Shown here piece after piece: positions 25,191 to 31,307 of a stretch of 64,000 nt of DNA. Each line of letters begins with the position of its first letter. The stretch's first letter is position 1. The notes under the pieces were generated by a model, which did no database searches, was not told the DNA's origin, and worked only from the letters and a program-made list of their open reading frames with translations. Position numbers and translations under genes: made by a program. The DNA is taken from assembly GCA_021646415.1 (NCBI GenBank), contig SOEU01000011.1, forward strand, positions 1 to 64,000. Direction: 5' to 3'. The stretch is from Candidatus Brocadia sp. (lineage in GTDB: Bacteria; Planctomycetota; Brocadiia; Brocadiales; Brocadiaceae).

Positions 25191-26222
25191 TTATACGTGA
25201 ATCACGTTAATTTTGGAAAGTTCGTCTATACCCAATCCCAGCGCGGCAGCAGTGGAGATATATTTGGGCTCTCGATTTGCCTGTTTTAGTGACGGAAGTT
25301 TCGTCTCTTTCCGTTTTTCTTCGACAATAGTATGGCATACCCTATCTAAGGCCACAGGGTCTCTGCCTACGATAATTCCGTTGTAATTCCATGTCCACTG
25401 CGGTTTGTAACCAGGCCCCCCCTGGTACTGTGCAAGAATTGCGTCACATACAATCAACCTTACCTTGTCTGCAATATACGAATGTGTATTCAATTCAGCA
25501 ATAAACGGATTGCAGTTATTCCCATGATATTTATTAGGATTATGAATAACGCCAAAAAAATTCTTCATTGCCACGCTTATCCCGGCCAGGTCATGGTCTT
25601 TTAAGACGGGAACATTAATAATAGCTGTACAGAAACGCGATACTATCTTACTAAAGCACGTTCCTACACTACCTGCCAATTGTGGCTCTGCCTCATAACC
25701 ACCGCCAGGGATTTCATCTGTGCCGAAACACTGGATTCCTTCAGTCTTGCGGCGGACACGGAATCCAGCGGTCTCAAGCTCCCGGCCAAAACGCTCAAAA
25801 ACAATAATATTTTTATCTTTAACGCCCGCTAGCTTTAGACCTTGAATAATAGATTCCACAACCGCAACATGAGGAGACATCGTCTTGCCTGATAGGCAGT
25901 TTAACTTTATGCCGACAATATCGTTAGGTTTAAAAAGGGCTTGCCATGCCTTTTCTTGTGACACGGCGTTTGTCAGCTGCATTACTGCTTTATGCAGTAA
26001 TCCCGAAACGAATGACTCTTTTAAATTCCTTGTTTCTGTAAACAAGTTGTCATCACGTGCAATTACTACCGTGGCAGGGTTAATCGTGGATATATCTTCT
26101 CCCCACGTAATAAGGGAGGTATTCGTCAGGCATTTCCCAATGATTGAAGAAGCATAAATACCGCTTCCCGTCAGTAAAGCTTTTTTAAGAAATAATCTTC
26201 TTTCCTCGTTTATTTTCATCAT
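25191..26222 (-). CDS. Tat-exported DUF362 protein
   Basis: The 343-residue protein begins with a twin-arginine-type signal (ERRLFLKKALLTGSGIYASS), so it is probably exported folded with a cofactor. The body is the DUF362 domain: DIVGIKLNCLSG, SPHVAVVESIIQGLKLAGV, FSKIVSRFCTAIINVPVLKD and SVAMKNFFGVIHNPNKYHG. DUF362 proteins are often fused to ferredoxin domains; here no CxxCxxC cluster motif is present. The reaction is unknown. A second Met follows the first. It stands alone. Confidence 0.88.
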   Translation of the reverse strand: MMKINEERRLFLKKALLTGSGIYASSIIGKCLTNTSLITWGEDISTINPATVVIARDDNLFTETRNLKESFVSGLLHKAVMQLTNAVSQEKAWQALFKPNDIVGIKLNCLSGKTMSPHVAVVESIIQGLKLAGVKDKNIIVFERFGRELETAGFRVRRKTEGIQCFGTDEIPGGGYEAEPQLAGSVGTCFSKIVSRFCTAIINVPVLKDHDLAGISVAMKNFFGVIHNPNKYHGNNCNPFIAELNTHSYIADKVRLIVCDAILAQYQGGPGYKPQWTWNYNGIIVGRDPVALDRVCHTIVEEKRKETKLPSLKQANREPKYISTAAALGLGIDELSKINVIHV

Positions 26223-26708: not shown

Positions 26709-28355
26709 ATGATCATGAGTCATATTAAACCTTTTTTTTGTCTTTCAGTTTCTTTCCTGGTATTAGTGTTTAGCGGTTGTACAACGGTAAAATATTATCC
26801 CGGCAATTTTGTAGAATCACTCCAGCATCCCACCAAATTTCCTGTAGTCTTCTCCGCCGATGTCCAAAACATTGAAGAGATTGCAAACAAAAATCCACTT
26901 GGTGAAGACGAAGATGTGAAGATTACCGATGTGGGTGAGAATAAAAATTCAAGTATGCACCTGATCCAGGTCCGTGAGAATGGAGAACTGCGTCCTCATT
27001 ACCACAAACGTCATGATGAAGTTATTTATGTTAAAAAGGGGAGTGGAATTGCCACCCTCAATGGTACACGATATCTGATAAAACCGGGTTCTATCCTGCA
27101 AGTTCCCGGTAAAACGGTGCATAAATTCCTTAATACCGGCAGTGAGCAATTTATGGCCGTTTCTATTATTTCTCCGCCATTTGACGGGAGAGACGAAAAG
27201 ATTATCAAGGAAAAGAAAAAAGCTGGCAGGCATATAAAAGAAGAAAAAAGACTCGCCACGAAAAAACCTGAAAAGACTGAAGAAAAAAGAGTTGTCTCAG
27301 ATACAAACAAAGAAGATGACGCAGAAGAAATCGGGACACCTATGGTTAAATCAGATAAAGTTGCAGTAAAGAAGTTGAATAGGCCTGTCCCTGAAGAATG
27401 GGATTATGATGCTGAAAAGCCATCACTTTCCTCGAGAAAGATATCGCCGCAAGAAGGGAAAAAGAAACAAGAAAATATAGCAGATGTCACAGAACCCGCA
27501 ACAAACCTTGAAGATGTGCATGAAAAGCTTGCAAAATTAGTGGAACTCAGGGAGGAAGGAACCATCTCTGCTGAAGAATATGAGGAAAAAAAGGATGCAC
27601 TTGTGGGAGGTCGGGATATCGGTGACCTCCCGGAATTAAAAGGTCACGCAAAAGGGAAAATGCCGGTGGAAGATGAATCTGTTTTGGATCAGGCTCTTCT
27701 CAACAATGATATCTCCGATGAAAATCAGGATACGGTGCCGGGCACACCGGATTTGGTTGATGAAAGCGAACCGGCAGAACATGAAGTTGCATCAGAAGAA
27801 AAAGAATCTTTGGAGGATAAACTAAAGATCCTGGAAGAAATGAGGCAGGAAAATTTGATCACTGAAGAGGATTATGCAGATAAGAAAAAAGAACTGGTGG
27901 GTATACCCGAAAGAGAAGAAAGCGGGGCAACGGTAGCCGAAAGCATAAATAGTGATGAACGTATCCAGGAGCTTAAGGAATTATACGATCAGGAACTCAT
28001 TACGGAAGAAGATTATAAACATAAGTTGAAGGAACTTACCGAAGCGCAGGACCCATCTCCAGAAATCCCCGGAGATGAAGAGCAAGCGTCTTCTCTGCCA
28101 TCCAACGATACCATCGAAGACGAACGAATCAGTGAGCTGAAAGCACTCTATGATGAGGGACTCCTTACACAAGAAGATTATGCATTTAAACTCAAGGAAC
28201 TGACGGGAGCAGAGACACAAAATTCTTCCCCTGGGATTTCTCCTGGAAATGAAATTAAAAATGAAAAGGTATCAGAACTCAATGAATTAAAGGAGCAAGG
28301 CCTTATTTCCGAAGAAGACTACGAATTTAAGAAGGCACAATTGTTGGGCAATTAA
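26709..28355 (+). CDS. Lipoprotein with cupin domain and five SHOCT-like repeats
   Basis: The 548-residue protein starts with a lipoprotein signal (lipobox VFSGC, Cys24). A cupin domain follows at about residues 75-155, with metal ligands in RPHYHKRHDE (His97, His99, Glu104) and VPGKTVHKF (His138). After a long Lys/Glu-rich linker come five copies of a 27-residue SHOCT-like helix pair at about 273-300, 372-398, 419-444, 474-500 and 521-547. They follow the pattern LxELxxxGLITEEDYxxKKxEL and are separated by acidic, Pro-rich spacers. SHOCT units usually occur singly at the C-terminus of membrane proteins. The protein probably sits on a membrane facing the periplasm; its ligand is unknown. Confidence 0.85.
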   Translation: MIMSHIKPFFCLSVSFLVLVFSGCTTVKYYPGNFVESLQHPTKFPVVFSADVQNIEEIANKNPLGEDEDVKITDVGENKNSSMHLIQVRENGELRPHYHKRHDEVIYVKKGSGIATLNGTRYLIKPGSILQVPGKTVHKFLNTGSEQFMAVSIISPPFDGRDEKIIKEKKKAGRHIKEEKRLATKKPEKTEEKRVVSDTNKEDDAEEIGTPMVKSDKVAVKKLNRPVPEEWDYDAEKPSLSSRKISPQEGKKKQENIADVTEPATNLEDVHEKLAKLVELREEGTISAEEYEEKKDALVGGRDIGDLPELKGHAKGKMPVEDESVLDQALLNNDISDENQDTVPGTPDLVDESEPAEHEVASEEKESLEDKLKILEEMRQENLITEEDYADKKKELVGIPEREESGATVAESINSDERIQELKELYDQELITEEDYKHKLKELTEAQDPSPEIPGDEEQASSLPSNDTIEDERISELKALYDEGLLTQEDYAFKLKELTGAETQNSSPGISPGNEIKNEKVSELNELKEQGLISEEDYEFKKAQLLGN

Positions 28356-28799: not shown

Positions 28800-30209
28800 A
28801 TGGCAATGAAAAGGTTTTTGAAGTTGTACGTTGTTATATGTATCGGTCTTTTATGCATTCCCTTGCTAGGGATGCCAAAAGTATCTGGCGGGACTGAAGC
28901 GTTAGAAAGTGGAGAAAAAAATCAATTGGTGAATCAGGCATTGCCCGCAATACATGACACCCAGAACGATTGGAACGCATGGTCTTCACTAGACCCTGAT
29001 CCCAATGCGGTTTCTGAAAACCATAAAATTCTCCTTGCCAGCAACAACGTGGAATCTCATACACCAGCAAAAAGTGAGTCAGTTCCTTCTAAGGTTGAAC
29101 ATACCGGCGAAATCACATCAGCAATGGAAGATTTTATCGAGTTAACGAAATATGGTAAGGCCATCCATGTCATGGCAATGTTGATGGTCGGTTTCGGATT
29201 TTTAATGGTCTTTGTAAAAAGATACGGTTATGGTGCCGTTACTGCTACCTATATTGCAGTAAGCATTGTTATTCCTTATTATATGTTTCTTAAAAAAATG
29301 GATATATTTGGGGAACCGGCTGAATTAACAATGGATCGGTTGATCCTTGCCGAGTTTTGTGCAGCAAGTATACTCATTGCCACAGGGGCATTCTTGGGTA
29401 GATTGAAGATGTCCCAATATATTATTATGGCATTGGTATTTGTTCCATCCTATATGCTGAATGAATGGATTATGTTAGAAAATGGCATGGGTCTTATCCC
29501 AAAAGGCCAGTTGATAGATACGGGTGGCTCTATCGTTATTCATCAATTTGGCGCTTATTTTGGATTAGGTGTGATTGTAAGAATGACCACGAGTGAGGAT
29601 TTTAACAAGAAGATCGAATCTGATAAGATCAGTAATCAATTTTCGATGCTAGGGAGTATGGTCTTATGGATATTCTGGCCATCCTTTTGTTCTGCACCAG
29701 CAGAAATATCAAAAATGCCCCTTGCCGCAGTCAACACTGTTCTTTCGCTTTGTGGTGCAACGGTAGCTACTTACATCACAAGTACAATGATTCGGAAAAA
29801 AATCGGTATAGAAGATATGGCCAATGCAGCCCTGGCGGGTGGCGTAGCTATTGGTTCTTCCTGTGCTCATACCACTCCAAGGGCTTCACTGATATTGGGT
29901 TTCATCGCCGGTATTTTAAGTGTCATTGGTTTTGCCCTTATTCAACCACGCCTTCAAAGAGCAATAAAAGGAATTGATACTTGTGGTGTCCATAATCTCC
30001 ACGGAATGCCTGGCATGTTAGGCGGTTTGGCAGCTATCTTTATAGCACAAAATGTCGTACCGGGATTGCAAATTAAGGGTGTCTTTATTACATTTATTAT
30101 TGCGTGGATTACGGGACTCGCTGCGGGAACAATCGTGTCCCTGTTTGGATATCGAAAACAGGCTTATGAAGATTCAGTGGAATTTATAGTTGAAGAGGAG
30201 CATCACTAA
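28800..30209 (+). CDS. Rhesus-type (Rh) ammonium channel with N-terminal extension
   Basis: A membrane channel for NH3/NH4+ (possibly CO2) of the Amt/Mep/Rh superfamily. The Rh branch is indicated by KAIHVMAMLMVGFGFLMVFV, then KRYGYGAVTATY, and by DTGGSIVIHQFGAYFGLGV, which carries the pore Asp and first His. DTCGVHNLHGMPGMLGG carries the second pore His. The first 110 residues contain a cleavable signal-like helix and a polar segment with no match I know, longer than in common Rh50 proteins. A strong GGAGGGCAGG site lies just before the ATG. It is followed by a perfect terminator, so it is transcribed alone. Confidence 0.93.
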   Translation: MAMKRFLKLYVVICIGLLCIPLLGMPKVSGGTEALESGEKNQLVNQALPAIHDTQNDWNAWSSLDPDPNAVSENHKILLASNNVESHTPAKSESVPSKVEHTGEITSAMEDFIELTKYGKAIHVMAMLMVGFGFLMVFVKRYGYGAVTATYIAVSIVIPYYMFLKKMDIFGEPAELTMDRLILAEFCAASILIATGAFLGRLKMSQYIIMALVFVPSYMLNEWIMLENGMGLIPKGQLIDTGGSIVIHQFGAYFGLGVIVRMTTSEDFNKKIESDKISNQFSMLGSMVLWIFWPSFCSAPAEISKMPLAAVNTVLSLCGATVATYITSTMIRKKIGIEDMANAALAGGVAIGSSCAHTTPRASLILGFIAGILSVIGFALIQPRLQRAIKGIDTCGVHNLHGMPGMLGGLAAIFIAQNVVPGLQIKGVFITFIIAWITGLAAGTIVSLFGYRKQAYEDSVEFIVEEEHH

Positions 30210-30869: not shown

Positions 30870-31307
30870 ATGACCGAAAAACACCTGATAAATCACTCAC
30901 AACGTGTTGGAAAGGTGGCGAACCTGGTAATCTTTCTGGGCATATTAGGTATTATACTGAGTATCCTGGCATTTACCGTTAGCCAGGGACTTGCCCAACG
31001 TGGCTATGGGTTTAGCTCTATTACCATAGGATTATTCATGATTGGGCTCGGATACGGCATCCGCTACCGTTATAAATATTGTCTTTATGCCGCGATCGGT
31101 CTGTTTATGATTCTTTCGTGTAATTTTCTTTTCAGATTCTTTGTTCATCACACCACGTATCTTACCTTGCGGCTGGCCTTATGCAGCTGGATATCCTTTC
31201 GTCTCATCCAGTCTGTTCCTTCTATGCAAATGCTTATTGCAACGAACACCTTTCCGGATAAAAGCAACCGTTTTATGGAACTTTTAGTGAAACAAAAACG
31301 CTTATGA
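30870..31307 (+). CDS. Four-helix membrane protein of unknown function
   Basis: The 145-residue protein has about four hydrophobic helices (near residues 17-38, 48-64, 72-92 and 98-115) and a basic C-terminal tail. I do not recognise the family. It starts directly after the UPF0016 remnant stop and its stop overlaps the trpC start (ATGA), so it sits in a tight operon with trpC. Confidence 0.7.
   Translation: MTEKHLINHSQRVGKVANLVIFLGILGIILSILAFTVSQGLAQRGYGFSSITIGLFMIGLGYGIRYRYKYCLYAAIGLFMILSCNFLFRFFVHHTTYLTLRLALCSWISFRLIQSVPSMQMLIATNTFPDKSNRFMELLVKQKRL

Follow-up and report, generated by a model that had tools for sequence, protein, structure and literature searches.

We found a predicted lipoprotein in which a cupin is followed by five spaced SHOCT units, encoded in a Brocadia-type anammox bacterium (nearest named loci, Candidatus Brocadia and Jettenia). 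The gene occupies 26709-28355 on the plus strand of the window, the 64,000-nucleotide stretch of DNA analyzed here, and its reading frame of 548 aa is unbroken. The best explanation of this architecture, which we hold with about even confidence, is a lipid-tethered arm outside the cytoplasm that docks partner proteins at many similar sites. More tentatively, the anammox lineage may have a scaffold in the periplasm or anammoxosome that uses SHOCT as an extracytoplasmic docking module, with lipid-tethered, ordered sites gathering partners around a metal-binding cupin.

The likelier start of the gene is the second ATG, at 26715 (MSHIK...), since the closest ortholog (L012) has that ATG alone in frame; it is also the start used in relatives. 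As in bacterial lipoproteins, the N-terminal signal peptide (26709-26780, +) ends in a lipobox, FSGC, with the lipid-acceptor Cys24 at codon 26778-26780. In an alignment of 31 relatives, Cys24 is invariant and G23 is >90% conserved; the residue at lipobox position -3, Phe, is not the classical one. From these signals the protein is predicted to be exported and lipidated. Sec-type signal peptides in anammox bacteria are found on cell-envelope and anammoxosome proteins alike (PMC2881027), so the signal peptide does not fix the final location, which would be the periplasm or the anammoxosome lumen. Behind the hydrophobic leader come a segment with the motif HPTKFP (residues 40-45; 26826-26843, +), which lies in the mature N-terminus and is conserved in anammox families, then the cupin, a charged disordered linker, and the five SHOCT units.

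The cupin barrel (residues 70-155; 26916-27173, +) matches Cupin_2 (PF07883, E = 1.3e-12) and has the beta-barrel fold of the superfamily, residues about 55-155 being modeled mostly at pLDDT above 90 by AlphaFold with 31 relatives. A 136-residue cupin region aligns gap-free in 22 diverse sequences. Foldseek retrieves small cupins at E of about 1e-9, among them the phosphomannose isomerase of Thermococcus, KdgF, and TM1459; their identity of 14%-28% allows no activity to be transferred to the anammox cupin, and we rejected naming an enzyme activity from these matches, their identity being low and their functions mixed. A plasmid search returned distant cupins and nothing closer. The barrel includes H97, H99, H102, D103, and E104 (26997-27020, +) and H138 (27120-27122, +), and this protein has the metal-ligand pattern HxH(X)4E plus a distal H in H97, H99, E104, and H138. 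The preliminary description had claimed a full metal site. All four ligands are present here, but E104 is replaced by Val or Lys in ten of 31 relatives and H138 is replaced in four; no substitution occurs at H99, H102, or D103, and a single relative has Tyr in place of H97. In the aligned sequences, then, the near-invariant feature across the family is HxHxxHD only, not the complete canonical ligand set. We infer that the cupin binds metal.

The tail begins with a charged linker (residues 166-266; 27204-27506, +) that is predicted to be disordered (pLDDT <50 for residues 167-262) and is about 40% identical among Brocadiaceae members. The five SHOCT units, all on the plus strand, follow at residues 272-300 (27522-27608), 370-398 (27816-27902), 417-445 (27957-28043), 472-500 (28122-28208), and 519-547 (28263-28349). 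The first is the most conserved and has a fixed first position, the third and fourth belong to a middle "ELY" type that is the main copy-number-variable class, and the fifth is a C-terminal cap type. Pfam assigns five stretches of the tail to SHOCT (PF09851; E = 4.6e-24, 83.9 bits against a gathering score of 27), and a whole-genome scan gives 25-30 bits per unit, at 27522, 27816, 27957, 28122, and 28269. The reversed tail and two shuffled tails have no SHOCT match, so the units are not generic charged helices; these controls rule out a low-complexity artifact, and the possibility raised at the outset that the units might be unrelated low-complexity helices is not borne out. AlphaFold with 31 relatives models five helix-loop-helix hairpins at pLDDT up to about 95, joined by linkers below 50, with a pTM of 0.32. 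In this model the tail would resemble beads on a string, confident hairpins on disordered linkers. Each unit has the two short helices and Gly-containing loop of a SHOCT, without indels, and the consensus is eKLxeLxELxEeGLIteeDYexKkxeL. The five copies over residues 272-547 depart from the usual single copy near the C-terminus, which is a typical and not an obligatory feature. The search for a solved structure matching the tail by sequence found none.

The unit helices have low hydrophobicity and a net charge of -1 to -4. Within the tail, paralogous units share 9-20 of 29 residues, and we found no DNA-level tandem repeat in the gene, which together indicate that the duplications are old and rule out a recent tandem repeat as the origin of the array.

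Among the families of the order, the tail forms a graded series. By using a unit profile trained on this protein family, we counted zero SHOCT units in seven loci of family f2 (the cupin-only form), one C-terminal unit in 11 loci of f4 (a further f4 locus, L060, is frame-disrupted), and one unit or none in f5, most members of these last two families having a single C-terminal copy. The 29 Brocadiaceae arrays have four units (eight arrays), five (19), six (one), or seven (one), one overlapping 12-bit match in L035 having been discarded, and total protein length varies from 495 to 752 aa. In Candidatus Brocadia carolinensis the gene (L039:554-2240; the same gene in L010) breaks within the linker, at a poly-A run, into two frames that overlap, and it cannot be told whether this is an assembly error or real slippage.

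The order of units within the Brocadiaceae arrays is largely fixed. Positional profiles place the units as 1-2-(3/4)n-5 in most proteins: Types 1 and 2 come first, type 5 is last in nearly all, and the middle types 3/4 are present in one to four copies, with copy number changing mainly there. The exceptions are L035 and L037, which double type 2, and L038, which departs at the second unit. These profiles were trained on five-unit proteins, which therefore score against profiles including themselves; independent support for the order comes from the four-, six-, and seven-unit proteins, which were not used in training and most of which conform. In Brocadiaceae a single SHOCT site may have grown into 4-7, chiefly through duplication of the middle type. 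Among 12 Brocadiaceae members, identity is 0.83 over the mature N-terminus and cupin and 0.62-0.77 over the SHOCT units, and the linkers reach only 0.40 before the array and 0.26-0.39 within it.

Of 62 genomes in the order, 52 encode a full-length ortholog of the cupin lipoprotein (168-233 bits with a profile of the cupin part) and two more a partial one; the remaining eight have no cupin match or weak unrelated ones. Beyond the order, scores reach no more than 73 bits in 13 other genomes of its class and 97 bits in a wider sample of the phylum. Judged from these profile matches, the protein appears to occur in nearly all anammox bacteria, with only weak relatives elsewhere. HZS_alpha, the hydrazine synthase profile, has matches in the source genome and in families f1, f2, f4, and f5. 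Both HZS_alpha and the cupin ortholog are absent from the lone f3 genome, which is 77% complete. Two class members that lie outside the order (G419 and G420) have 11 and 16 HZS_alpha matches, most of them within frames 770-1730 aa long; there the profile is therefore neither a clean marker nor specific for hydrazine synthase.

One further protein of the source genome passes the Pfam cut-off for SHOCT (L098:3043-4074, - strand; G000:C8:15042-16073); it has an N-terminal hydrophobic leader, an N-terminal domain without a Pfam match, and two C-terminal SHOCT units. AlphaFold models it with low confidence outside the hairpins. Of the 62 genomes of the order, 59 carry a member of its family, and the 13 genomes from the rest of the class carry none; there are also extra copies, some matching the N-terminal part alone.

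The gene neighborhood differs among the families. In Brocadiaceae, the cupin lipoprotein gene is usually flanked by a divergent DUF362 gene on one side and an ammonium transporter gene on the other, here at 25191-26222 (-; the product has a Tat-like N-terminus) and 28800-30209 (+; Amt family). The DUF362 link extends to family f2, and the Amt link is confined to Brocadiaceae among the loci examined; with 444 bp between the cupin and Amt genes, we draw no inference of a functional pairing with Amt. DUF362 was rejected as an obligate partner: It is a conserved divergent neighbor in f1 and f2, yet stop codons disrupt it in G006, G010, and G020, where the cupin gene beside it is intact. Further downstream, a hydrophobic 145-aa protein without a significant family match (30870-31307) is kept between amt and the trpC-like IGPS gene across Brocadiaceae. 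In all 21 loci of f2, f4, and f5 (L040-L060), the gene directly after the cupin gene on the same strand is surE (product assigned by NCBIfam); the gap is about -13 to 299 nt in 20 loci measured, and in several the stop codon overlaps the start codon. The cupin gene and surE were probably one transcription unit ancestrally; in the source genome surE is on a different contig. SurE is a cytoplasmic nucleotidase, so a shared function does not follow from the linkage. A promoter and terminator scan gave results near chance level.

A multi-site docking arm is consistent with the lipid anchor, the fixed order of units, and the contrast between conserved beads and variable linkers. In such an arm the anchor would hold the cupin near the membrane, and the long flexible tail would bear the ordered hairpins. 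The cupin would be the ancestral working domain, probably metal-binding, and might act as a sensor, a small-molecule binder, or an enzyme; since the cupin-only form persists in f2, the tail is dispensable for that ancestral function. Each SHOCT bead would be a docking site for another extracytoplasmic protein, and the tail would keep close to the cupin either several partner molecules or one partner that is itself repetitive; these sites would have been multiplied in Brocadiaceae. The identity of 62%-77% in SHOCT units against 26%-39% in the linkers is what would be predicted for binding beads separated by linkers that act only as spacing, and acidic, weakly hydrophobic helices fit protein contacts better than membrane insertion. 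We also count for docking the graded series of 0, 1, and 4-7 copies, the invariant lipobox Cys, the Pfam SHOCT matches with their negative controls, and the second SHOCT protein of the genome, which likewise bears a leader and, within the class genomes searched, occurs in this order alone. Against docking we count the persistence of the cupin-only form in f2, an export that is predicted from sequence, and the limited identity of paralogous units (9-20 of 29), which may not all bind the same thing; no partner of the tail was found in this analysis.

Conserved helical hairpins could also be spacers. The tail would then be an envelope tether, mainly a ruler of fixed reach between the anchoring membrane and another layer, in which the hairpins are compact spacers and only type 5 binds. 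A lipid anchor at one end of a long disordered tail, a distinct conserved unit at the other, and copy-number variation mainly in mid-array suit this alternative, which we nonetheless consider unlikely: Conservation of the inner units is similar to that of the last (0.62-0.77), and total lengths of 495-752 aa make a poor ruler. Self-assembly, in which SHOCT hairpins pair between molecules and oligomerize the lipoprotein into a lattice, is improbable. Similar repeated hairpins can give avidity, and SHOCT often accompanies oligomeric proteins, but in the sole published test that we found a SHOCT fusion was monomeric (PMC3581485), the units are net acidic, and the model, at its low pTM, gives no confident global arrangement of units. 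Of the scaffold suggested in the preliminary description, recruitment of partners therefore fits the ordered array of conserved beads, and oligomerization is not favored. Quite improbable, too, is a tail that has no binding function and consists of drifted SHOCT duplications kept as solubilizing or mass filler; it would agree with a copy number that differs between relatives and with SHOCT having no known ligand, but not with the strong conservation contrast between beads and linkers or the position-specific signatures across the family. Attachment of the chain to a membrane surface by the SHOCTs themselves, along the lines of the SHOCT-like domains of phage-shock-type systems, which are predicted to tether proteins to the inner leaflet (PMC11237479), is very improbable, since that prediction concerns the cytoplasmic side, the anammox lipoprotein is predicted to be outside the cytoplasm, its helices are weakly hydrophobic and acidic, and a lipid anchor is already present.

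This near-universal, uncharacterized, predicted envelope protein of anammox bacteria offers a natural series of no, one, and 4-7 ordered units on one conserved domain within one order, which makes the question of SHOCT binding testable comparatively. Although SHOCT is widespread, we found no established SHOCT function or demonstrated ligand in the literature examined and, in the PMC subset searched, no paper describing SHOCT with a cupin or SHOCT with anammox, in agreement with the earlier statement that no described protein with this domain order was known. Small single-domain cupins (Cupin_2, PF07883; for example, Thermococcus PMI 7zvm, KdgF 5fq0, and TM1459) have the barrel fold and the HxH...E...H motif in common with the anammox protein but no described SHOCT tail, and the anammox family differs from them in lacking a conserved E and last H. 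Extracytoplasmic cupins of other Planctomycetota, such as L090 and L091, resemble it in having HxHxxHDE, a PP[FS]DGxD end motif, and either a signal peptide or a lipobox, but their scores with the anammox profile do not exceed 97 bits, and L090 and L091 show no SHOCT tail. SHOCT itself (PF09851) is a two-helix unit of about 28 residues, present mostly as one C-terminal copy, with eight copies in Naegleria D2VS68 (Eberhardt et al. 2013, PMC3581485). The statement that it is normally found once at a protein end needs correcting in that multi-copy proteins had already been described in Naegleria; what appears new is the SHOCT array on an anammox cupin lipoprotein. The anammox units are of the same kind as those in that study and score above the Pfam cut-off; they differ in forming an ordered array of 4-7 that follows a lipidated cupin and is predicted to be extracytoplasmic. 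The SHOCT-like domains of phage-shock-protein contexts (PMC11237479) are related bihelical domains at protein ends, predicted to act at the inner leaflet and mostly without signal peptides, a model unsuited to the anammox protein because this is predicted to be exported; in contrast, the SHOCT units described here would lie, by prediction, at the outer side of a membrane.
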